Source: a virus. From it: a stretch of DNA of 38,165 bases. The DNA lies in IMG/VR virus record IMGVR_UViG_3300031463_000542, positions 1 through 38,165 of that record; one strand, written 5' to 3'. The translations under genes and the position numbers were made by a program. A model generated the notes under the pieces. That model had not been told where the DNA came from. It was given only the letters and a program-made list of their open reading frames with translations, and made no database searches. Positions 2,685 through 26,280 of the stretch are shown here, one piece after another (position 1 is the stretch's first letter; each line of letters begins with the position of its first letter).

Positions 2685-2999
2685 ATGAATAGAGCTAGAG
2701 CGGAACTGATCGGAGATTTGGCTGCACTGATGAATGATATCATAAACAGATGGGAGTATCCACAGACAAAAGATAAATTGGAAAGGGTTATGAAGATGCT
2801 CCCAGAAGATTTGAAAAATTTCCTTGCTACTTATGCCAACATGGAAGGAAATGAGGACAATCCTACTGCGGTTATATCAGAGGTGGCATTTGCTACAGGG
2901 TACTTATGGGCAATGAACAAATGTTCTTCAGTTTTTAGACGTAAACACTATGGATTGTTAAAGGATTGGAGGGATTTAATAGAGATGTTAGATAACTAG
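2685..2999 (+). CDS. Hypothetical protein with one copy of a repeated NPT/GYLWAM domain
   Basis: The 104-residue protein is one copy of a domain that occurs twice in the next gene. Shared landmarks are a helix of the type DIINRWEYPQTKDKLE, then PEDLK, then NPTAVIS, then the signature TGYLWAMN and an S-V-F-R end. The copies align without large gaps over about 90 residues. The upstream sequence (GGAGG, a short spacer, then GTGATATG) is also shared with the next gene, so the duplication included the ribosome binding site. Function is unknown. A glycine plus aromatic signature in an alpha-helical setting could form a packing interface, but nothing enzymatic is visible. Confidence 0.8.
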   Translation: MNRARAELIGDLAALMNDIINRWEYPQTKDKLERVMKMLPEDLKNFLATYANMEGNEDNPTAVISEVAFATGYLWAMNKCSSVFRRKHYGLLKDWRDLIEMLDN

Positions 3000-3018
3000 A
3001 ATGGTGCGGAGGCGTGAT

Positions 3019-3756
3019 ATGGAAACAGAAGTGGAGATGCACACAAGAAATATCGGTGAACAAATAAAAAGAACTATGAAAATAGCATTATCCTATGGAT
3101 TGATACCTGAATTGTGTGATTTGCAGTATGAAATCATGAACCACTGGAAGGATCCCAAAACCAAAGATATGATTATGGAGATTACGGGGAAAATCCCAGA
3201 AGATTTCGAAGATCTCAAATACGAATTGAAATATTATGTCAACCGAGAAGAATGCAAGAACAATCCTACTGCGATTATGTCTGTGGTGGCGTGGATCACA
3301 GGATATTTATGGGCAATGACAGATTGTGCTTCAGTTTTTAGAAATCCAAATTTAGATGGGTTTTACATACAAAGATTGATTGATGGGATCAAAGTTATTC
3401 TAGAAAGAGCAAGAGGTGATATAATCGATGAGTTATGCGTCCTGGAGTATGACATAATAAACTACTGGGATAATCCCCGGACCAAAGAAAAATTGGAAAA
3501 GATTATGGGAAAAATCCCGGAAGATTTAAAAAAACCAATAGACTTTTACATGAACAGGGAAGAATACAAGGAAAATCCTACTTGCATCATGGCTGGGTTA
3601 GGATTCATAACAGGGTATATCTGGGCAATGACAGATTTTGCCTTTGTGTTGAGGTTTGATCTCTATGAGCTAATAAAGATCTTTTATGAGATTTTGGAAA
3701 AGGAACAAAAGAAGCCATGGTTACCAGATTTAGATAAAAAAGAGATTGAAACATGA
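3019..3756 (+). CDS. Hypothetical protein with two tandem copies of the NPT/GYLWAM domain
   Basis: The 245-residue protein carries two tandem repeats of the domain seen in the preceding gene. Repeat 1 runs from about residue 28 (ELCDLQYEIMNHWKDPKTKD, NPTAIM, TGYLWAMTD) and repeat 2 from about residue 133 (ELCVLEYDIINYWDNPRTKE, NPTCIM, TGYIWAMTD). I start at the ATG at 3019 because it has the same GGAGG plus 7-base spacing as the homologous gene at 2685; an in-frame ATG at 3001 lacks this. The end overlaps the next start as ATGA. No function can be assigned. A third, single copy lies just upstream, which points to successive tandem duplications. Confidence 0.8.
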   Translation: METEVEMHTRNIGEQIKRTMKIALSYGLIPELCDLQYEIMNHWKDPKTKDMIMEITGKIPEDFEDLKYELKYYVNREECKNNPTAIMSVVAWITGYLWAMTDCASVFRNPNLDGFYIQRLIDGIKVILERARGDIIDELCVLEYDIINYWDNPRTKEKLEKIMGKIPEDLKKPIDFYMNREEYKENPTCIMAGLGFITGYIWAMTDFAFVLRFDLYELIKIFYEILEKEQKKPWLPDLDKKEIET

Positions 3757-4407: not shown

Positions 4408-4731
4408 ATGAAAAAACTACTAATGTTGTCAGTTCTTTTGTGTGCCCTGTGTTCCACCACATATGCTTTTGGGAACTTGTTTATGAACCAGGTAGGCACT
4501 ACTATTTTTGGTCAGTTCAATGGAGAAAACTTCTGGATCAATCAAGTCGGTCCAGTTGGATTAGGTTATGTAGGGAAGAAAAACATATTCTTCTATGAAC
4601 CTACTTTTGGAACGACTATGACTGTCGGTAGAATTGGGGAAGAAAATATTTGGCTGAACAATGGGAATGCATGGATGAGCTCATTTTGGGATAATTCTGA
4701 TGAGTGGACGAATGACTCTGACGACGACTAA
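4408..4731 (+). CDS. Small secreted acidic protein with signal peptide
   Basis: A 107-residue protein with a clear Sec signal: MKKLLMLSVLLCALCSTTYA followed by F, with an A-x-A-like TYA cleavage site. The mature part has loosely repeated glycine/aromatic units (GNLFMNQVGTTIFGQFNGEN, FWINQVGPVGLGYVGKKN, IFFYEPTFG, RIGEENIWLNNGN), suggesting a small beta structure, and ends in a strongly acidic tail (NDSDDD). The start at 4408 follows AAGGAG with good spacing; an upstream in-frame extension to 4321 would bury the signal peptide and is rejected. An exported phage protein in an early operon suggests an envelope target such as superinfection exclusion or host surface change, which is inference only. 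Confidence 0.75.
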   Translation: MKKLLMLSVLLCALCSTTYAFGNLFMNQVGTTIFGQFNGENFWINQVGPVGLGYVGKKNIFFYEPTFGTTMTVGRIGEENIWLNNGNAWMSSFWDNSDEWTNDSDDD

Positions 4732-4751
4732 TAAAGAATTTTCGTTGTTTT

Positions 4752-4775
4752 GAGGATCTCGCTCTAGAGAACCTC
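4752..4775 (+). terminator. Hairpin after the early operon
   Basis: GAGG-A-TCTC, loop GCTCTA, GAGA-A-CCTC: an 8-pair stem with a central A/A mismatch, 20 bases after the stop of the secreted-protein gene and before the next promoter. There is no T-run after it, so it is not a classical intrinsic terminator. It may be an mRNA 3-prime stabiliser or a weak terminator. Confidence 0.35.
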
Positions 4776-4838
4776 GCTAATCCGGAAGATGGACCATTGT
4801 AGAGCCCAAACAAATATCAGCCCTCCTCACAATTCTTA

Positions 4839-4866
4839 TTGTTTGATTTGCAATTCTAACTAAACT
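4839..4866 (+). promoter_or_regulatory. Leaderless-type promoter for the primase-helicase gene
   Basis: TTGTTT (4839-4844), a 16-base spacer and TAAACT (4861-4866) are followed after 6 bases by the ATG at 4873. The -35 match is weak, but the spacing is the same as in the stronger cases at 2259-2286 and 2300-2327. No SD is present before 4873. Confidence 0.45.
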
Positions 4867-4872
4867 GACCCA

Positions 4873-7371
4873 ATGAAACCTGAAGATTATTTATACTCAC
4901 GTGCTGTCTCTCTGCCTTGCCACCTTCCCCAAATCCATATATGGGAACCGCCATTCCCTACTGCTTCACTCTTAGAAAGACTGTGTTGTGTGAAAACCGT
5001 AGATGCAATCAAGTCTATTGAATATCAAATGTCTGGTATAGTCTGGATCAAAGGCGAAACAGACAAAGGAGAATGCTGGCAGGCTCGGTTGCTCTTCCAG
5101 AATGAAGAAGCAGCGCAGAAATTTGCGGCTCTTTTTGGGAAAAAAAAGCCTCCTAGGTTCCTAGCTCCACCAGATGCGTGGATGATATTCCCAGTAAGGG
5201 ATGGCAAAGATGAGGATTTGTATATCGTAGAAGGTGGCATCAAGACGGCATCATTCGACCAAAACACAGAAGGAAAGTTTTCTATACTAGGGGTCGCTGG
5301 ATGCTGGATGGTCATAAACAATGGAGAAGGAAGGTATGTTATACCCGATATCCTCTGCAAGCGCATAGAACAAAAAAAACGCCTTTGGTTAGTCATGGAT
5401 GGGGATTTTAGGACGAACAAAGACGTGTTCGATGCTATTGTCTCCTTCGTCTTCACTGTTTGGGCTAAAGACCTAAACAAAGAAATATATATTCTGTGCT
5501 GGGATAAAGAAAAAGGCAAAGGTATAGATGATTTTCTAGCATCTTTCCCAGAAGAAGAACGGAAAGCTGTGATTTTCAGTGAGAAGTTAGTAGAAAGAAA
5601 ACCTGTTTTGGAAGTGATCAGAAATGAGAATTCGAAAAGAAGCTCTGAATCAATCCTGTCTACACTCAAAAAAGTAGCTAAATCACTTCCAGAATTAGAA
5701 GGCATTTCGCATGAACTAGAAGAAAGGATCAGAAAAGCATTCCCTGGAGTAAGAGGACACCTCAAAAAAATCCTGTCCTTCCAAGAAGTACTCGATGATG
5801 AAGAGCAGCCGAAACCACCTGCCGGTTTTCTACAAATAAACCATCAGCTCTTTTATATAAAGACCGAAAGGGGTATACATTGCGTCAGGCTGGGCAAAAA
5901 GAACAAATGGATCATAGGGGAACCTATATGCGCTCCGTTTGATAAAATGAGATTCCTTGAAGAAGTGTATTCAGGCAACAAATCTGTAGAAATAGGATTC
6001 CATGGAGGGAAAGTTATTGTGCCTATTGGTTCTTACAAGGATCATATCTATATATTCAGACCTATAGATTTCAAGGAGTTTGTCTCAAACGCTTACCAGT
6101 CCAAATCATTCCCTACCGAGAAAATAGTGGATAGGGTTGGATTCTTAGGAGACGCATTCATCTATCCAGGTTGCTCAGAACAAATGAAAGAAGGGATAAG
6201 ATGTCATGGGATGTCTCTAGACAAAATCAAACCAATAGCAATAGAAGAAGCTAAGCCTCTCGTAAGAAAAGCTCTCACAACAAAAAGCGTTTTGTCTATA
6301 GCACTATCATTCCTGGCTGGATCATTGTTCGTTAGAAAATTAGAAAGAGCAAGCTGCCTTTATTTGTATGGCATGACAGGCGGAGGAAAGACAATTGTCC
6401 TAGATATCATCAGAAGATCTTATGGGGATTTCAAGGACAGACTTGTCTACAAAAAGAGAGAAGAGGATTATCCAATGATATCTGCCGCTCTTTGGTCTTT
6501 TCTCATGAGAACATGGCAGGATGTATGCATTCCTCTGGATGAAACCTCTATAGTATGCTTGAATAGACTCTTAATAGAAAGCGGAACAGGGAAAAGAGCT
6601 AATCTCGCAAGAGAATCTGATGAAGTCAGAGCAAACATTATAGCCGCTTGTGATATCAATCCAGTCAAGGATATTGAAGAAAATTCTCTTTATAGGAGAA
6701 CTTTGGTATTCAACATGGAAGAAGCTCCAGAAAGTTGGGGACTGAGTTGGAATGAATTGGATTTTCTCTCTAAGAATACCGCTGGTTGGTACTTCTTCTG
6801 GCTGGTCAAAGAAGCAGAGAAGTTTATGAAGATGGAAATTCCTAACCATGAAAACCTTGCAGTTCAGACTTGCTTAGTTGGACTAGAGCTATGGTCAAAA
6901 ATCTTAGATTGTGATGCGTTGTATGGTGAATTAGGACCTTATATCCTAGAAACATACAATTCATACATGGATTCTCATCCAGTAGTGCAGGTAAAAAGTG
7001 GTATAAAAAGCAAAGCAGAGAAGATATTGGACGGTCTTGTGGAGTGGATCTATGAGAGAAAAGACAATTTTTCTAGGGAATATGGCCTAGGAGCTCTAAT
7101 TGGGTCCAAATATTCATCCTATGGAATGCTGAAATTGGACAGAGATTGTATCCAGCTTTGGATCAACACTGTTGGTTGGAAACATGCGACATATAAGATT
7201 GGGATGTCTAGACCTACAATCGTCAAAATACTGAATGATCAAAATCTCCTAGGGGAAGAACGAAGAAGACTAACATCAGGGAAAGGGGATTCGATCCATC
7301 ACTATATCAAACTAGACCTGAACCTATTCTCCAGAGGCATGATCAACGACCTCTTCCCTGGCAAGGAATAA
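4873..7371 (+). CDS. Primase-helicase (DUF3854/Toprim-like domain plus DUF927-like ATPase)
   Basis: The 832-residue protein has two parts. The N-terminal part carries a Toprim-type signature of DUF3854 primase proteins: YIVEGGIK with E120, then LWLVMDGDFR with D176 and D178, then GKGIDDFLA. The middle part carries Walker A GMTGGGKT (residues 500-507) and a DUF927/D5-like ATPase body with IPLDETS (Walker B-like) and IIAACDINP (sensor-like). It would prime and unwind phage DNA. No polymerase gene is recognised nearby, so host polymerase is probably used. It stands alone between a weak leaderless-type promoter and an AT-rich tract with a hairpin, a common place for an origin. Start is the only ATG compatible with that promoter. 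Confidence 0.85.
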   Translation: MKPEDYLYSRAVSLPCHLPQIHIWEPPFPTASLLERLCCVKTVDAIKSIEYQMSGIVWIKGETDKGECWQARLLFQNEEAAQKFAALFGKKKPPRFLAPPDAWMIFPVRDGKDEDLYIVEGGIKTASFDQNTEGKFSILGVAGCWMVINNGEGRYVIPDILCKRIEQKKRLWLVMDGDFRTNKDVFDAIVSFVFTVWAKDLNKEIYILCWDKEKGKGIDDFLASFPEEERKAVIFSEKLVERKPVLEVIRNENSKRSSESILSTLKKVAKSLPELEGISHELEERIRKAFPGVRGHLKKILSFQEVLDDEEQPKPPAGFLQINHQLFYIKTERGIHCVRLGKKNKWIIGEPICAPFDKMRFLEEVYSGNKSVEIGFHGGKVIVPIGSYKDHIYIFRPIDFKEFVSNAYQSKSFPTEKIVDRVGFLGDAFIYPGCSEQMKEGIRCHGMSLDKIKPIAIEEAKPLVRKALTTKSVLSIALSFLAGSLFVRKLERASCLYLYGMTGGGKTIVLDIIRRSYGDFKDRLVYKKREEDYPMISAALWSFLMRTWQDVCIPLDETSIVCLNRLLIESGTGKRANLARESDEVRANIIAACDINPVKDIEENSLYRRTLVFNMEEAPESWGLSWNELDFLSKNTAGWYFFWLVKEAEKFMKMEIPNHENLAVQTCLVGLELWSKILDCDALYGELGPYILETYNSYMDSHPVVQVKSGIKSKAEKILDGLVEWIYERKDNFSREYGLGALIGSKYSSYGMLKLDRDCIQLWINTVGWKHATYKIGMSRPTIVKILNDQNLLGEERRRLTSGKGDSIHHYIKLDLNLFSRGMINDLFPGKE

Positions 7372-8120: not shown

Positions 8121-8179
8121 GATGAGATGAATGCCGAAAGGCAATGGAGACACTGTTCTTTGTGAGGAGGGCCGATAAC

Positions 8180-8488
8180 TCATTTCAAGTAGGAAGCTCC
8201 AAGGGAAGGAGTGGTTCCTACCGGTGGAGCGTCTATTCGGTGGGACTCCACAACAATGGCTCCCTGCCTCGGATCAAATACAGCAATCCAAGGATTTAGG
8301 AGTATATGGGAGAGGTAGGTATATAACCAAATGGGACCCCTCCCATATATCACGACCCCATGGCTTACGTCGAGCTCATGTGGAAGCTCGACAGAAAGAA
8401 GTTCTCTTGGGTCGAGAACCCCGTTGACTGAGATGCTGAGGATCTGGAAATACTCAGCCGGAATCACGCTTAAAGACAAATTATTCAT
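8180..8488 (-). CDS. csx3: Csx3-family protein (CRISPR ring nuclease Crn3-like)
   Basis: The 102-residue protein matches the Csx3 family in length and key motifs: GVVIYGRGPIWLY (residues 44-56), H61, AVFDPRQGAIVV (70-80) with D72 and R74, then ESH. Csx3/Crn3 proteins are ring nucleases that cleave cyclic tetra-adenylate, the second messenger made by type III CRISPR complexes; a histidine, aspartate and arginine in these places are reported as important in the Archaeoglobus protein. Carried by a phage, it would most simply blunt type III CRISPR signalling. The start follows AAAGGAG and overlaps the upstream stop as ATGA, so it is the second gene of a two-gene operon. No Cas genes or CRISPR repeats are nearby, which favours a counter-defence role over being part of a CRISPR locus. 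Confidence 0.85.
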   Translation of the reverse strand: MNNLSLSVIPAEYFQILSISVNGVLDPRELLSVELPHELDVSHGVVIYGRGPIWLYTYLSHILLNPWIAVFDPRQGAIVVESHRIDAPPVGTTPSLGASYLK

Positions 8489-8821: not shown

Positions 8822-8917
8822 GAACTAAACATACGTAAGCTGAGCGTATATTATACTTTAATTTTTTTTTGTAGGAAGGCTTTCTACAAACCATCCCACA
8901 AGCCACCTTGTGTTACA

Positions 8918-9003: not shown

Positions 9004-9023
9004 TGGTACGTATATACGTACCA
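9004..9023. promoter_or_regulatory. Perfect 20-bp palindrome, likely operator
   Basis: TGGTACGTATATACGTACCA is fully self-complementary. It lies 45 bases before the A1 gene, close upstream of a TTGACT that may be part of its promoter, and within the region that divides A1 from the csx3 operon. Such a palindrome is typical of a repressor operator. A near copy (18 of 20 bases) occurs at 26036-26055 inside the minus-strand gene at 25921-26280. Confidence 0.55.
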
Positions 9024-9068: not shown

Positions 9069-9368
9069 ATGGTTCTAGTCTATGTAGTAGTCGGAAACGA
9101 GTTAATCCGTTTAGTGCGCCTAGATACGTTTCTTTCTAATCAACCCAAAGCTAGCGCTGAAGCCTTCCATGACACCATCAAGGAGGGGAAGGTCCCCCTC
9201 TATGTCATCGGAAGAGCGATTTGGGCTCCTATACGGGACCTTCGAAAAATAGCCGAATCGCTGAAAAAGAGAGAAAGGCTTGGGGCTGGGGGCGCATACC
9301 AAATCGTGCGAGCCATTCCTCCCGAATTGGTCCATGCAAGAGAAAAAGAAGAGGGAGGCACAGAGTAG
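9069..9368 (+). CDS. Unit 1 gene A: hypothetical protein, paralogue of the gene at 9797
   Basis: The 99-residue protein aligns with the 104-residue product at 9797-10111: both have an early LVRL/LVRV, then a segment of type LYVIGRAIWAPIRDLRKI / LYIIDKQIWIALTDLQRI, then QIVRAIPPELV / QIIQAIPPEKV near the C terminus. Identity is low, so the copies have diverged far. The middle segment resembles the wing and recognition region of small excisionase-like or regulator proteins, but that is weak. The gene ends with TAG at the left edge of a 65-base block repeated exactly in unit 2. No SD is obvious before the ATG. Confidence 0.65.
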   Translation: MVLVYVVVGNELIRLVRLDTFLSNQPKASAEAFHDTIKEGKVPLYVIGRAIWAPIRDLRKIAESLKKRERLGAGGAYQIVRAIPPELVHAREKEEGGTE

Positions 9369-9425
9369 GTGGTGTATTCCTAAGCCTGGACCTGTCCCCT
9401 GGAGGCTTTTCACTGTGGGCGAGGC
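9361..9425 (+). repeat. 65-bp exact repeat, copy 1 (A/B junction of unit 1)
   Basis: Bases 9361-9425 are identical to 10104-10168. The block contains, in order: the TAG stop of gene A (9366-9368), AAGCCT (9382-9387), AGGCTT (9403-9408) forming a 6-bp stem, GGAGG (9401-9405) partly inside that stem, and GTG (9415-9417) followed by GGCGAGGC. Outside the block the upstream genes are diverged paralogues and the downstream genes are unrelated. Confidence 0.9.
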
Positions 9426-9696
9426 CCCAAAGAAAATTTCTTGGAAACACCTTGGCTTCGATTTAGGTGAGCTCGCGCACAAGGCAAGAAAGCTACAACA
9501 TGAGAAAGGGCTCTCCCGCTGGGGGGCGTGCATAAAGATAGCCAAACAAGCTTTAGAGCAAAAAAAGCAAGAGGATCCAGACGTAATAAAGAAGGCCACA
9601 AAAAAGCTAGCTTCCTCCACAGGCAAGGATCCCCGTACCATTACGCGTGCTGAGGTTGAAAATAAACTAGCCGACGCCATCCGCCACAAGATCTAA
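9415..9696 (+). CDS. Unit 1 gene B: hypothetical basic protein
   Basis: From a GTG at 9415, placed 9 bases after GGAGG inside the repeated block, the frame encodes 93 residues: a basic helical N-terminal half (WKHLGFDLGELAHKARKLQH) and a C-terminal segment (KLASSTGKDPRTITRAEVEN). The frame is open further upstream through the shared block (reading PKPGPVPWRLFTVGEA) to ATGs at 9337 and 9280, so a longer form overlapping gene A is possible; the GTG is preferred because it also exists in unit 2, where no upstream start codon is available. I do not recognise the family. The first residues after the GTG (GEA) are shared with unit 2 and the rest is not. Confidence 0.55.
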   Translation: MGEAPKKISWKHLGFDLGELAHKARKLQHEKGLSRWGACIKIAKQALEQKKQEDPDVIKKATKKLASSTGKDPRTITRAEVENKLADAIRHKI

Positions 9697-9735
9697 AGAT
9701 AGACGCTTCTTCATATCCCCATAGACACAAAAAAC

Positions 9736-9758
9736 TTTGGAGTAAACACAACTCCAAA
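9736..9758 (-). terminator. Hairpin with T-run on the minus strand
   Basis: TTTGGAGT, 7-base loop, ACTCCAAA: a perfect 8-bp stem. Read on the minus strand the stem is followed by G and six T, the form of an intrinsic terminator. It would stop leftward antisense transcription before it reaches unit 1. On the + strand it has no T-run. Confidence 0.4.
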
Positions 9759-9765
9759 CTCCCTG

Positions 9766-9795
9766 CTACCCCTACGCCTGTGTAGTTTAGGGTAG
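9766..9795 (+). promoter_or_regulatory. Nested inverted repeat before gene A of unit 2
   Basis: CTACCC and GGGTAG (6 bp) enclose CTAC and GTAG (4 bp) with loop GCCTGT and a 4-base TTTA bulge. The right arm ends one base before the ATG at 9797, so folding in RNA would occlude ribosome access. It may therefore control translation of gene A2, or be a DNA operator. Confidence 0.35.
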
Positions 9796-9796
9796 T

Positions 9797-10111
9797 ATGA
9801 GTGAAAATTTTTTTCTTATTCAAAAAAAGGATTTAGATCGATTGGTTCGGGTAGAGGATCATCCACAATGGCTCCAGAGGGCTATTTACCAAGCTTTTTG
9901 GGAAGAGAAGCTACATCTTTACATCATTGACAAACAGATCTGGATTGCCCTGACCGACCTTCAGAGGATCAAAAAACTCCATGATGAGATAAGGCTAGAG
10001 ATTTGCAAGGAAGAGAAACAAAAAGTCGGGGAAACCAACGCTTCTCAAATTATCCAAGCTATTCCACCAGAAAAGGTGGCAGCTAGCACTAAGGAAGACC
10101 GGCCAGAGTAG
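9797..10111 (+). CDS. Unit 2 gene A: hypothetical protein, paralogue of the gene at 9069
   Basis: The 104-residue product is a diverged paralogue of the product of 9069-9368 (shared LVRV, LYIIDKQIWIALTDLQRI, IIQAIPPEK), with an added charged linker before the IPPEK motif. The stop TAG (10109-10111) lies at the start of the second 65-base repeat copy, in exactly the same position as in unit 1. The ATG is preceded by a nested inverted repeat instead of a clear SD. Its role is unknown. Constant pairing with a downstream gene through the repeat suggests A and B act together or that A translation controls B. Confidence 0.65.
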   Translation: MSENFFLIQKKDLDRLVRVEDHPQWLQRAIYQAFWEEKLHLYIIDKQIWIALTDLQRIKKLHDEIRLEICKEEKQKVGETNASQIIQAIPPEKVAASTKEDRPE

Positions 10112-10168
10112 GTGGTGTATTCCTAAGCCTGGACCTGTCCCCTGGAGGCTTTTCACTGTGGGCGAGGC
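10104..10168 (+). repeat. 65-bp exact repeat, copy 2 (A/B junction of unit 2)
   Basis: Identical to 9361-9425 at every base, 743 bases further on. It again holds the TAG stop of gene A, the AAGCCT (10125-10130)/AGGCTT (10146-10151) stem, GGAGG (10144-10148) and GTG (10158-10160). Confidence 0.9.
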
Positions 10169-10334
10169 TGCTAAAGCCCTCTCAGTGCATCTAGCCAATG
10201 TACGTAGGTGGATCGTAAGCGGTCAAATTCAATTCCGTAGGCTAGGGAAGCTTGTCCGCATTCCTGAGGAGGAGCTTGCCAGGATTGCCCAGGAAGGATT
10301 GGGCTTCTCTAGGAAGAAAGTTAGGCATGTCTAA
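10158..10334 (+). CDS. Unit 2 gene B: small HTH (excisionase/MerR-type) DNA-binding protein
   Basis: The 58-residue frame from GTG at 10158 reads GEAAKALSVHLANVRRWI, then GQIQFRRLGKLVRIPEEELA: the helix-turn-helix plus wing pattern of HTH_17/excisionase proteins (E-A-A, V-x-x-x-x-V-R-R-W-I, R-x-G-x-x-x-R-I-P). In relatives two or three residues such as FTV precede this; here they are encoded just before the GTG, so a longer product is possible, but no ATG, GTG or TTG exists upstream in frame before the TAG at 9996-9998. GGAGG lies 9 bases before the GTG. The stop is inside the first 20-base direct repeat, a likely autoregulatory or recombination site. Confidence 0.65.
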   Translation: MGEAAKALSVHLANVRRWIVSGQIQFRRLGKLVRIPEEELARIAQEGLGFSRKKVRHV

Positions 10335-10336
10335 TT
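10317..10336. repeat. 20-bp direct repeat, copy 1
   Basis: AAAGTTAGGCATGTCTAATT overlaps the 3-prime end of the HTH gene. An exact copy is at 10427-10446, and the core CATGTCTAA occurs a third time at 10340-10348. The arrangement resembles iterons for a DNA-binding protein or arm-type recombination sites. Confidence 0.75.
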
Positions 10337-10426
10337 TAGTCATGTCTAAACTTTTATTCCACGGCATTCCAAAACATGAAGTTATATCTTACAACGCATC
10401 GATAACATGATGGATATCAACAACAT

Positions 10427-10446
10427 AAAGTTAGGCATGTCTAATT
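10427..10446. repeat. 20-bp direct repeat, copy 2
   Basis: Exact copy of 10317-10336, 110 bases downstream. The 90 bases between the copies contain no credible reading frame apart from the third core motif. It lies 20 bases before the nested dyad at 10466-10511. Confidence 0.75.
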
Positions 10447-10465: not shown

Positions 10466-10511
10466 AAGGACTTAATTCTCTACTAATTTAGTAGACTATT
10501 CATAAGTCCTT
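10466..10511. other. Nested dyad: 9-bp arms around a 7-bp hairpin
   Basis: AAGGACTTA and TAAGTCCTT (perfect 9-bp arms, 10466-10474 and 10503-10511) flank TCTACTA-ATT-TAGTAGA (perfect 7-bp arms, 10479-10495), with 4- and 7-base joints. It can form a coaxial hairpin or a cruciform. Together with the direct repeats just upstream it looks like a protein-DNA assembly site, such as an attachment or replication site, though no integrase gene is visible. Confidence 0.5.
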
Positions 10512-11597: not shown

Positions 11598-11865
11598 GAA
11601 AATATTGGGAATGCTCCAAAAAAATTACTACTCATATTCAGCACTTAGGAGGGCTGGGTTTTCCCATTATTGGAAGAAAAGGATAAAAGCAATCCCAATA
11701 CGCATAGGCAGGGGGGTGTATTATCCTAAGGGAGAAATAGATGAATTTTTGGAGTCTAAAGGAATGCATATTATTGACAGAGGTAATTTTGTGTACGAGA
11801 TAGAACTGACACCAACAATCAAACAGAACAAGGAGGATCAACCAGAAGTTGATTGTGAAGCATGA
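11569..11865 (+). CDS. Small HTH_17/excisionase-like DNA-binding protein
   Basis: The 98-residue protein has an N-terminal segment YYSYSALRRAGFSHYWKKRI followed by RIGRGVYYPKGEIDEFLES, the helix-turn-helix plus wing pattern of MerR-like HTH_17 proteins (a small-to-large residue core, R-x-G-R-x-x-x-Y-P, then I-D-x-F-L). Such proteins act as excision factors or transcription regulators. The C-terminal 30 residues are acidic and polar. Start at 11569 lies inside the preceding gene; an ATG at 11587 is also possible and keeps the domain intact. It couples to the next gene by ATGA. Confidence 0.65.
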   Translation: MSSPRLMRNEKILGMLQKNYYSYSALRRAGFSHYWKKRIKAIPIRIGRGVYYPKGEIDEFLESKGMHIIDRGNFVYEIELTPTIKQNKEDQPEVDCEA

Positions 11866-12245
11866 ACGAAACAGGCACGGAATCGGCCAAAGATTTTTTC
11901 ATTTTATATCGGTTGAAATACTTAAGGGAGTGTTATGACTCACTGCTTCTCCGCTGTTGGATGATTTCTAAATATTATAAGAACAAACCCCAAAAAGTAG
12001 AAGAATTGATTGAAGACATAATAAAACTAAATGATCAGATACAACAAACAAGCTTAGTAGTTACGCCATTACCTGAACCAGTCAGGATATGTTCACAAGC
12101 AGTTGTGAATACATTGCAGGAGTTGAATGAGAAATCCCTATATACAGAGGAAATGATATCTTATATTGTTAGTGCTTCAGTGGAGATGGAGGATGTATTG
12201 ACACTATTTATATTGAAAACAATCAAACAGAAAGGAGTTGATTAG
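11862..12245 (+). CDS. Hypothetical protein, paralogue of the next gene
   Basis: The 127-residue helical protein shares its core with the 72-residue product of the next gene: a KDFF/KEFL start, then KNKPQKVEELIEDI / KNKPQKVEEIVKDT, then AVVNTLQEL / TVVNTLREI. DNA identity includes a perfect 27-base stretch (11979-12005 and 12328-12354), so the duplication is recent. This copy has an extra 30-residue acidic and hydrophobic C-terminal extension. It starts in an ATGA overlap with the HTH gene. Function unknown. Confidence 0.7.
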   Translation: MNETGTESAKDFFILYRLKYLRECYDSLLLRCWMISKYYKNKPQKVEELIEDIIKLNDQIQQTSLVVTPLPEPVRICSQAVVNTLQELNEKSLYTEEMISYIVSASVEMEDVLTLFILKTIKQKGVD

Positions 12246-12246
12246 G

Positions 12247-12465
12247 ATGAACAAAAATGTAGGCAAAGAATTCCTTTTATTTTTGTATCAGCTGAAAGAA
12301 TGGTGCGACGTATCATGTTTCCGCACTAAGAACAAACCCCAAAAAGTAGAAGAAATTGTCAAAGACACGATCAATATATTCGATTATATACAAAAAGAGA
12401 GCAAATTGCCTGAAGAAGTTAGAGAAGGTGCAAGAACAGTGGTGAATACATTGAGGGAAATATAG
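12247..12465 (+). CDS. Hypothetical protein, short paralogue of the preceding gene
   Basis: The 72-residue product is a shortened paralogue of the previous protein, lacking its C-terminal extension. I start at the ATG at 12247, which is preceded by AAAGGAG at about 12 bases; an in-frame TTG at 12238 overlaps the previous stop and is a less likely start. The product is helical, mixed charge and without signal or membrane segments. The 39-base gap to recT holds a GGAGG-preceded 14-codon frame (12480-12524) that overlaps the recT start and may be a coupling leader. Confidence 0.65.
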   Translation: MNKNVGKEFLLFLYQLKEWCDVSCFRTKNKPQKVEEIVKDTINIFDYIQKESKLPEEVREGARTVVNTLREI

Positions 12466-12504: not shown

Positions 12505-13176
12505 ATGGACATCAATCAACTAGCTCCCAACAATACTTGGCTTATAGCAGCCAAAGAGAAAGAGTCAGAACTCCTGTCTTTAGGCGTGCCCAAGGGTAGG
12601 ATATTAGATAGTTTGAAGGATGCAGCAAGGTGGGGTCTTTTACCTGATGGGCATGAGTATGCAATTTATTCATTTAGGAAGCGCAATGGTGAAATGACAT
12701 GTTTAGGCTTCCCTATGATAGGGGGCTTAAGGAAAATATCTCTTTCTTCAGGCAAGGTATCCATTCTAAATTCCAACGCTATTTATCCAGGCCAAAAATG
12801 GGAGTATAGGGAAGGCTCAGACCGTGTATTCGTTCACCATGTAAGCTCATCAGACAGGAAAGGCAATCCTACGCATGTATATGCATTCGTGAAGTTTGTG
12901 GGGGGCGACTGGGATGTAGAGCTATGGTCCTGGGATGAGGTAGAAAAGTTCAAGGAAACTATAGGCAGGAAAGAGGAATGGGGGAGTGTGTGGGAAAAAT
13001 TCCCTGTAGCTATGGCCAAGGCTAAAGTGACGAAGAAACTTTTGAGCCGTTATGTGATTGTACCCGAGGATGAAGAAGATGGACAAACCATATCCCAAGA
13101 TACAGGAGTTGAAGAGAAACCTTCCGAGCGCAAGCCAGCTGTGGTTAGCTCAGAAGTGTCGGGCCTCTTGGATTGA
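12505..13176 (+). CDS. recT: RecT-family single-strand annealing protein
   Basis: The 223-residue protein has the RecT/Red-beta family signature: KDAARWGLLPDGHEYAIYSF, then GEMTCLGFPMIGGLRKISL, then GKVSILNSNAIYPGQKWEY, and a final WGSVWEKFPVAMAKAKVTKK block before the low-complexity acidic tail. These proteins anneal complementary single strands in phage recombination and replication-end repair. It overlaps the downstream nuclease gene by about 98 bases; an annealing protein beside an exonuclease is the usual two-gene recombination module. SD AGGAG lies 6 bases before the ATG. Confidence 0.85.
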   Translation: MDINQLAPNNTWLIAAKEKESELLSLGVPKGRILDSLKDAARWGLLPDGHEYAIYSFRKRNGEMTCLGFPMIGGLRKISLSSGKVSILNSNAIYPGQKWEYREGSDRVFVHHVSSSDRKGNPTHVYAFVKFVGGDWDVELWSWDEVEKFKETIGRKEEWGSVWEKFPVAMAKAKVTKKLLSRYVIVPEDEEDGQTISQDTGVEEKPSERKPAVVSSEVSGLLD

Positions 13177-14098
13177 GAGCAAGGCGGCAAAAGAATCCGG
13201 TCTCTTAGCTCCACCTTCTCCATCGATGCAGATAGGCAAAAGGCTGCATCATGTGCTTTCAGAAGAGCTGCCGCCTGGGACAGACGAAGAGAAGGAACTT
13301 CTTGAATGGTCAAGGAGCGTAGTGTCAGAACTTACCAAAGGCCTGACTGTGTTATATGACTACAAGGAACTGGTATTAAGTCGGGTGGGTGAGTATGTAG
13401 GCAGGGCTGACAGGGTGATTGTTACACCTCAGCTTTTGATAGTGGTGGATTGGAAGACAGGTTACAATGATGTAGACATGCCTGGTGAGAACCTGCAGCT
13501 CAAAGCTTATGCACTAGCTGTTATGTCCTGGTGGAAGAAAGACTGCATGGTAGTGGTAGGCTATACAATGGACAGGCGTATTGAGAAAGACATATTTCCG
13601 TATACAGAGGTATGGAAACTAGAGAATGAGATTTTTGGGATTTATGAGTCAGTCAAAGAAGAGTATACGTATGGTCCGCATTGTCGGTGGTGCGCTGGAG
13701 CAGTGACGTGTCCGAAGATAGGTGAATTATGGAAGGAAATGCTTTCAGGAATTCCTCGTATAAAAGAGGATACAGGCAAACTTTTTCTGATAGTGAAAGT
13801 GATAGGCGAGGTGATATCGGGACTAGAGTCAAGGCTCAAGGAAGAAATTATGGAGAAAAAACGAAGTGGAGAAAAGTTGCCAAAAGAGGTTATGGTTTAT
13901 ATGTCTAAGAAATGGCAACTTCCACCGCTCAAGGAGCTTTGGCCTCTATTAAAGAAAATGGGAGTTAAGCCAGAAGATGTATTAGAGAACAGCTATGCAA
14001 AAGAACAATGGATCAAAAAAATCCTCGATGAAGAAAGCTTCAAACAAATCGCAAACCCAGTTCACTTCCCTGTCATCAAACTCTCAGGCACCTCTTGA
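13079..14098 (+). CDS. RecB/Cas4-like PD-(D/E)XK nuclease
   Basis: The product shows the RecB-type nuclease core: MQIGKRLHHVLSE (helix with the conserved H), VGRADRVIV, then LIVVDWKTGYND (motif II/III, D and K catalytic), and ENLQLKAYALA (Q-x-x-x-Y). One early cysteine (LAQKCRASW) and three late ones (CRWCAGAVTC) follow the 1+3 pattern of iron-sulphur nucleases such as Cas4 and AddB. It would resect DNA for RecT. I choose the ATG at 13079, nine bases after GAGG; in-frame ATG 13070 and TTG 13058 are less well placed. The C-terminal ~100 residues are helical and unassigned. It overlaps terL by 104 bases. Confidence 0.8.
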   Translation: MDKPYPKIQELKRNLPSASQLWLAQKCRASWIESKAAKESGLLAPPSPSMQIGKRLHHVLSEELPPGTDEEKELLEWSRSVVSELTKGLTVLYDYKELVLSRVGEYVGRADRVIVTPQLLIVVDWKTGYNDVDMPGENLQLKAYALAVMSWWKKDCMVVVGYTMDRRIEKDIFPYTEVWKLENEIFGIYESVKEEYTYGPHCRWCAGAVTCPKIGELWKEMLSGIPRIKEDTGKLFLIVKVIGEVISGLESRLKEEIMEKKRSGEKLPKEVMVYMSKKWQLPPLKELWPLLKKMGVKPEDVLENSYAKEQWIKKILDEESFKQIANPVHFPVIKLSGTS

Positions 14099-25989: not shown

Positions 25990-26280
25990 GTGAGGTCTTC
26001 TTTTTAGGCCTACATGCCAATATACCTCATTTGGCTGGTACGTATGTACGAACCATTTGAGCCATGCCTTAGGATTCCTACCAGCGAAATAGATAATATG
26101 CGCAATGTTTCCTTCTTCTATGTCGAATATGCACCAGCTTGTTCCGTCCTGGCTTCGGATGATTCTGCCGCGGTTATATAGATAGACTAGGTAGCCCATG
26201 AGTTGGAATTCTGGTTCTTTTTTCCAGCCGTGCTCCACAAAAAAACTGTAGACATCCCCTAGAGTTTCAGGTATTTTCAT
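25921..26280 (-). CDS. Hypothetical protein, GNAT-like small virion-region protein
   Basis: The 119-residue protein has a compact alpha/beta look (GDVYSFFVEHGWKKEPEFQL, GRIIRSQDGTSWCIFDIEEG, then NPKAWLKWFVHTYQPNEVYW) and a basic end (RRPHLRGKRYAYRP). The layout resembles phage GNAT-like acceptor-free proteins near ejection genes, as in T7 gp13, but no acetyl-CoA motif is seen, so function stays open. It is the only minus-strand gene in the late block. Its C terminus overlaps the fibre gene antisense, and its ATG is five bases from the ATG of the divergent gene at 26286. A near copy of the 9004-9023 palindrome lies within it. Confidence 0.6.
   Translation of the reverse strand: MKIPETLGDVYSFFVEHGWKKEPEFQLMGYLVYLYNRGRIIRSQDGTSWCIFDIEEGNIAHIIYFAGRNPKAWLKWFVHTYQPNEVYWHVGLKRRPHLRGKRYAYRPNKSIVPNSCTSF
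26249..26277 (+). promoter_or_regulatory. Candidate leaderless promoter for the ejection gene block
   Basis: TAGACA (26249-26254), a 17-base spacer and TATTTT (26272-26277) are followed after 8 bases by the ATG at 26286. It lies inside the 5-prime end of the minus-strand gene. This geometry agrees with the other candidate leaderless promoters, and a promoter is expected here because a leftward gene interrupts the late operon. Confidence 0.4.

Follow-up and report, generated by a model that had tools for sequence, protein, structure and literature searches.

Organization of the A/B locus

The window, that is, the whole 38,165-nt stretch of viral DNA that was analyzed (IMG/VR record IMGVR_UViG_3300031463_000542), contains two consecutive gene pairs, A1-B1 and A2-B2 (units 1 and 2), joined by the same 65-bp block. 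In the following list, Yel denotes the mobile element of Methylacidiphilum sp. Yel described in the next section, with its genes A, B and C.

9069-9368, + strand: A1, a 99-residue orphan protein and paralogue of A2, without a Pfam or PHROG match
9361-9425, + strand: block copy 1 (putative recipient), covering the A1 stop region, the B start region and the first B1 codons
9376-9696, + strand: B1, an apparent in-frame fusion of the block-encoded B start to a tail like that of Yel C (open frame, protein comparison)
9797-10111, + strand: A2, 104 residues, its N-terminal half diverged from Yel A and its C-terminal half near-identical to it (sequence comparison, AlphaFold model)
10104-10168, + strand: block copy 2 (putative source context), collinear with Yel on both sides
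10119-10334, + strand: B2, a predicted HTH_17 (Xis/MerR-like) DNA-binding protein (PF12728, E=3.3e-11)

Direct comparison confirmed that bases 9361-9425 and 10104-10168 are identical over 65 bp and that their flanks are diverged, as an earlier note on this DNA had claimed. Ungapped identity between the units falls at once to 25-40% on either side, giving sharp borders at 9361 and 9425, and a 30-base core of the block had just two matches in the window at ≤3 mismatches, with none expected by chance. The block is the joint of the A and B genes: it comprises the last A codon and the TAG stop, the B start region with the ribosome-binding sites of B, and the first B codons. Its translation in the B frame is QSRWCIPKPGPVPWRLFTVGEA for B1 and B2 alike, and it is in frame in both units. 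The block is less stably folded than shuffled sequence (z=+2.1 for the window copy, +1.1 for the Yel copy) and no Rfam family was found within it, and on these grounds a structured RNA or terminator there was rejected.

The view of the A genes as distant paralogues was borne out by 30% identity over 100 residues (E=4e-15 in a single pairwise comparison). A matched no known family in Pfam, PHROGs or PADLOC. The AlphaFold model of A2 has a compact N-terminal domain and a long helix, with pLDDT of about 90 for the first 60 residues; searched against structures with VIA-align, it gave weak matches (Z up to 4.6), mostly to MerR-type winged-helix proteins, and Foldseek returned nothing below E 0.5. 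Profile comparison with hhalign (probability 2%) did not establish a relationship of A to HTH_17 proteins and failed to support full-length kinship between A and B2.

B2 matched PF12728 with 43.7 bits (curated cut-off 27) over profile positions 1-49 of 51, the match beginning inside the block, and its best PHROG is 'excisionase and transcriptional regulator'. From these matches we infer for B2 the role of a small, excisionase-type regulator with an HTH_17 domain. B1 had no Pfam or PHROG match and shares with B2 solely its block-encoded N-terminus. The B genes had been described as different, one an HTH protein and one unknown; this holds for B2 and for the B1 tail as judged by Pfam and PHROG, but not for the shared N-terminus, nor for the ancestry of the B1 tail, which is related to the C-terminal part of a Methylacidiphilum gene (see below).

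The palindromic motif TTAGNCATGNCTAA occurs in three exact copies (10321-10349 and 10431-10444) at or just past the B2 end and nowhere else in the window, and these copies are probable operator sites. A perfect 18-bp palindrome, GGTACGTATATACGTACC, lies upstream of A1 at 9005-9022; it has a second copy with 2 mismatches at 26037-26054, between the tail and late genes, so that the pair may be a shared early/late operator. Tandem duplication was also seen elsewhere: positions 2685-3756 hold three repeats of about 109 nt (62-75% identity), corresponding to tandemly duplicated domains in two small orphan proteins, and two adjacent orphan genes at 11862-12465, in the same early region, are diverged tandem duplicates with stretches 72-77% identical.

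A third copy in a host-resident element

A protein search of one genome per species found a single relative of B2, in Methylacidiphilum sp. Yel; the host of the phage is Methylacidiphilum, a heat- and acid-loving methane eater. The gene lies in a 9.85-kb element at a tRNA-Arg(CCT) gene (G001:C88:23153-33002, equal to L095 3153-13002), with the gene order integrase, C (297 aa), a 60-bp leader, A, B and a large DUF3854 primase/ATPase. The last 46 bases of the tRNA-Arg are repeated 9.8 kb away and mark the element ends, the integrase lying beside the second copy. No relatives of the window terminase, portal or capsid were found in the element. We adopted a working definition of satellites after PMC13376191, with a size range of 7-20 kb and an integrase between attL and attR as the test of membership. 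The Yel element has the integrase, the 46-bp end repeats, a length within this range and, besides the primase/ATPase, an HTH_17 protein; with no phage structural gene recognized among the genes scanned, it appears satellite-like. A survey of the three closed genomes of the genus found no prophages (PMC6688271).

Yel B is 85% identical to B2 at the protein level and likewise exceeds the curated cut-off of PF12728, its match spanning the whole domain. It opens with an ordinary ATG that overlaps the A end and that reads ATT in window B2. Yel A is 40% identical to A1; its N-terminal half is unlike that of A2 and just loosely resembles A1. In the satellite C is the gene immediately before A, and in the window B1 takes the corresponding place before A2.

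Tracts shared by the phage and the satellite-like element

Three features around the module recur in the Yel element.

8856-8915, + strand: leader of 60 bp, found directly upstream of the single A in Yel (blastn, 97%)
9990-10303, + strand: 314-bp tract common to the Yel element (94.6% identity), covering the A2 end, the block and most of B2
10479-10495, no strand assigned: 17-bp palindrome TCTACTAATTTAGTAGA, a possible shared operator, also in the Yel element

The long tract differs from Yel at 17 of 314 positions and has sharp borders at both ends; no difference falls within its last 98 bases, suggesting that another exchange took place more recently. The leader includes 50 bases of unbroken identity and can form two hairpins (RNA fold z = -2.45). 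Exact runs shared by phage and Yel measure 27, 44, 50 and 98 bases, and outside the shared tracts similarity is slight. Between the leader and the conserved end formed by A tail, block and B lie about 1.07 kb in the phage and about 0.19 kb in the satellite; the phage's 1.07 kb holds an extra A, a second joint copy, B1 and a different N-terminal half of A2.

Since the host carries a third copy within a small mobile element, the virus and the element appear to have exchanged the module. Module exchange by recombination, one of the two origins offered in the earlier note, is thus supported, the Yel copy having sharp similarity borders. A search with the block for what lies on each side of it had been proposed there; in the Yel copy the B flank is shared and the A flank chimeric, the N-terminal half being the part that differs. 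Relatedly, a small-protein gene with a signal-like N-terminus at window positions 4448-4684 shows 93% DNA identity to a copy in the Yel chromosome (G001:C16:36643-36873) and 72% to a copy inside the element (L095 about 4657-4931), and probably reflects another recent exchange.

Searches of viral contigs, phage records, one genome per species and 387 genomes of the phylum turned up nothing beyond the two window copies and Yel; these collections may omit records very near the window's own, so absence elsewhere is no proof. Exact-pattern scans of the viral contigs for the block core and the leader gave no match. A scan of the genome contigs with part of the block was likewise empty, a weak null because the pattern misses Yel by one base. 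Protein-pattern searches of the viral contigs with A2, portal and terminase found no relatives; the capsid has hundreds there, the best 80 of them merely 38-40% identical, and neither A nor B was present in the loci of capsid relatives examined. tblastn with A1, A2, B1 and B2 in phages, and with B1 in plasmids, gave just weak HTH matches. With three copies known, the sequences support module exchange, while the small swappable cassette system proposed in the earlier note is not shown as a general arrangement.

Starts of the B genes and origin of B1

In both window copies of the block the B start has changed from ATG to ATT and the first ribosome-binding site from GGAGG to GTAGG, relative to Yel. 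B1 could begin at ATT (9376), where ATG is expected, or at GTG (9415) with GGAGG 9 nt upstream; the sole standard in-frame start of B2 is GTG at 10158. A programmed A-to-B frameshift was entertained because the B frame (+1) stays open further upstream and the beginning of the HTH_17 domain precedes this sole standard start, but was dropped as first choice because the Yel orthologue has an ordinary ATG at the ATT position. Degradation of the start codon and first ribosome-binding site in both copies suggests that B may be poorly expressed in the phage. Relative to Yel, seven of eight changed codons in the first half of B2 (start codon counted) alter the amino acid, a pattern that would fit decay as well as altered specificity.

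The B1 tail is 43% identical to the C-terminal part of Yel C over 49 aa (E=2e-9; z=11 against shuffles); the whole tail could also be aligned to the C tail, and it is in frame with the block. In the B1 model the tail is helical and the block-encoded N-terminus disordered. On these comparisons the B start appears to have been fused, in B1, to the tail of the satellite gene C. Because C precedes Yel A as B1 precedes A2, the ancestral order may have been C-A-B-C-A-B, with a deletion that joined the first B start to the second C tail. The right-hand junction of B1 joins non-homologous sequences, which counts against a purely homology-driven origin and calls for a deletion or illegitimate join.

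Judged by the HTH_17 match and the weak winged-helix similarity of A, B2 and perhaps A would bind DNA and regulate early genes or the element. We favor, with moderate confidence, A/B as a regulatory pair.

A possible counter-CRISPR role

Two further features lie less than 1 kb from A1.

8124-8152, + strand: solitary, intergenic CRISPR-repeat-like sequence, resembling the 37-nt type III-B repeat of Methylacidiphilum genomes
8180-8488, - strand: stand-alone Csx3/Crn3, 102 aa (PF09620, E=5e-21)

These features bear on another reading of the module, in which A1 and A2 would be anti-CRISPR (Acr) proteins, B2 an Aca HTH repressor and the block an acr-aca junction, so that phage and satellite would have swapped a counter-defense module. 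In phage (A2-B2) and satellite (A-B) alike, a small orphan gene of a mobile element has an HTH gene as its next neighbor downstream, as the acr-aca layout requires. The satellite also carries the repeat core beside B, hosts of the genus Methylacidiphilum have type III-B CRISPR, and solitary repeats are known to adjoin acr genes (PMC10651486). On the other hand, the first 60 residues of the A model are weakly most like MerR-type winged-helix DNA-binding proteins, and the satellite A-B pair sits between integrase and primase, where regulators are usual. We regard the acr-aca assignment as possible but doubtful.

The neighboring features were compared with their host counterparts. The phage Csx3 shares 65% identity with the corresponding domain of a Csx3-AAA protein from Methylacidiphilum; aligned to AF_1864, it keeps the DPR motif (D69, R71) and H80 and lacks the essential His60. 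It is therefore predicted either to bind cA4 without cutting, as a sponge, or to use another residue. The solitary repeat differs from the host repeat by one inserted base and by a handle changed from ATTGAGAC to ATGGAGAC. The phage and the Yel element each have one copy of the 20-base repeat core, GCCGAAAGGCAATGGAGACA (at L095 10100-10119 in the element), with the same altered handle, and the first 19 bases of the core were found nowhere else in the five Methylacidiphilum genomes searched. The repeat is thus a Racr-like candidate present in two mobile elements. Comparison of 99 unique Methylacidiphilum type III spacers with the window and the element gave matches of chance length only. A broader proposal would make the whole of 8.1-10.4 kb a counter-CRISPR island directed against type III-B, with a cA4-binding, His60-less Csx3, a Racr-like repeat and acr-aca genes in A1-B1-A2-B2, its parts traded between phage and satellite; this we consider unlikely. 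Csx3 and the repeat mimic are nevertheless the most promising lead in the neighborhood, and a good place to seek type III anti-CRISPRs, although they are not needed to explain the block.

Origin of the block

We consider it likely that the blocks are the A/B joint of an early-region module, probably regulatory, that is shared with the Yel element, and that they were made by recombination. The evidence comes from comparison with Yel. The block differs from the Yel copy at 4 of 65 positions (6.2%) and the flanks at 13 of 249 (5.2%; Fisher p=0.76), and both window copies bear the same four differences, one of which brings the A stop forward. Because the block is conserved no better than its flanks, and because the four differences are common to both copies, it appears to be the product of recombination, received by unit 1 from unit 2, rather than a control element under special conservation. 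Most simply, unit 2 would have arrived with the module and served as the source, its joint being copied into unit 1 later, since collinearity with Yel extends to both sides of the block in unit 2 and to neither in unit 1. The sharing of all four differences would point to one recent copying event within the phage lineage; with one outside copy known, a single comparison underlies both the direction and the number of exchanges. The earlier note had held that a block found only here, or always between the same two flanks, would indicate one recent local duplication. The shared differences come close to that case.

The same comparison bears on an old tandem A-B duplication, after which the A and B genes would have drifted apart and purifying selection for a control element at the joint would have preserved the 65 bp. 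A1 and A2 are indeed tandem paralogues, and the block contains the A stop, the ribosome-binding sites and the B start. The Yel block, however, has changed at the same rate as its flanks, two of its changes from the window hit the B start codon and a ribosome-binding site, and the shared differences mark the window copies as recent copies of each other. Strong selection on a control element, the second origin offered in the earlier note, is therefore unsupported, also by the folding of the block, and the old duplication is quite improbable.

The second block could instead be an assembly artefact, produced where two related phages or elements, both with the block, were wrongly joined. In favor of this, the sequence is an IMG/VR virus contig and presumably a metagenome assembly, the repeated stretch is short, and the two copies agree in their odd changes (ATG to ATT). 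A 65-bp repeat is, however, shorter than usual reads and normally resolved, and the block runs in frame into B1, whose tail resembles the gene preceding satellite A, as a real rearrangement predicts; we judge a mis-join very improbable. A site-specific, integron-like cassette system with the block as recombination site, suggested by a perfect block with variable sides, appears extremely improbable, there being no integrase or reverse transcriptase among the window ORFs scanned, a block that is coding and without strong structure, and exchange borders also elsewhere (9990, 10303 and 8856/8915).

A probable recombination route

Homologous recombination between the phage and a Yel-like element finds a likely agent downstream of the module.

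12505-13176, + strand: RecT single-strand annealing protein (PF03837, E=5.7e-16; phrog_148, E=4.9e-19)
13058-14098, + strand: PD-(D/E)XK exonuclease, RecT partner, with its true start inside the listed ORF (PF12705, E=8.3e-8; phrog_69, E=7.8e-21)

The two genes lie about 2.2 kb from the module, and RecT is the likely agent of short-homology recombination. Phage Rad52-like recombinases, RecT among them, build mosaics with resident defective prophages, and for Red-beta 23-27 bp of identity suffice (PMC3945230); the 65-bp block and the runs shared with Yel (27-98 bases) meet or exceed this threshold. The transitions expected of a mosaic are present and sharp, at 9990, 10303, 8856 and 8915 against Yel and at 9361 and 9425 between the units.

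In the proposed sequence of events, a phage would infect a cell carrying such an element, and its RecT and exonuclease would most likely drive homology-based mosaic formation. After the split from the Yel lineage, the joint would have been copied from unit 2 to unit 1, where it would give a B start region to the satellite C tail and so create the fusion B1. Were the two blocks to recombine, 743 bp would be lost and a simple pair, A1-block-B2, would remain.

Comparison with known systems

The event is of a known kind and well resolved, in a poorly known phage-satellite-host setting. It offers an ordered case in which a phage and a host-resident, satellite-like element swap pieces of an early-region module, and the block shows how a start region with its first codons, once copied before another frame, makes a new fusion gene. 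If A/B switches both elements, their sharing it would tie phage infection to satellite control.

The module resembles acr-aca operons in having a small gene followed by an HTH gene near counter-CRISPR features, and departs from them in that A weakly resembles a DNA-binding protein. It resembles loci of HTH_17/excisionase (AlpA/Xis-like) regulators through the PF12728 matches of B2 and Yel B and the best PHROG of B2; the pairing with an orphan A and the altered B start codon in the window are unlike them. Like the phage satellites PICI, SaPI and StCI (PMC13376191), the Yel element has an integrase, tRNA-derived repeats, a replication gene and an HTH regulator. It has been assigned to none of the named families and has only short tracts in common with this phage. 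The closest likeness in process is to RecT/Red-type mosaicism (De Paepe et al. 2014, PMC3945230; Martinsohn et al. 2008, PMC2327257). Unlike the cases described there, the joint occurs twice in one phage genome, a fusion gene, B1, is present and the event itself is inferred. As in those cases, short shared stretches border segments that are diverged or unrelated, a recombinase of the family is encoded by the phage, and the partner element lies in the host chromosome.
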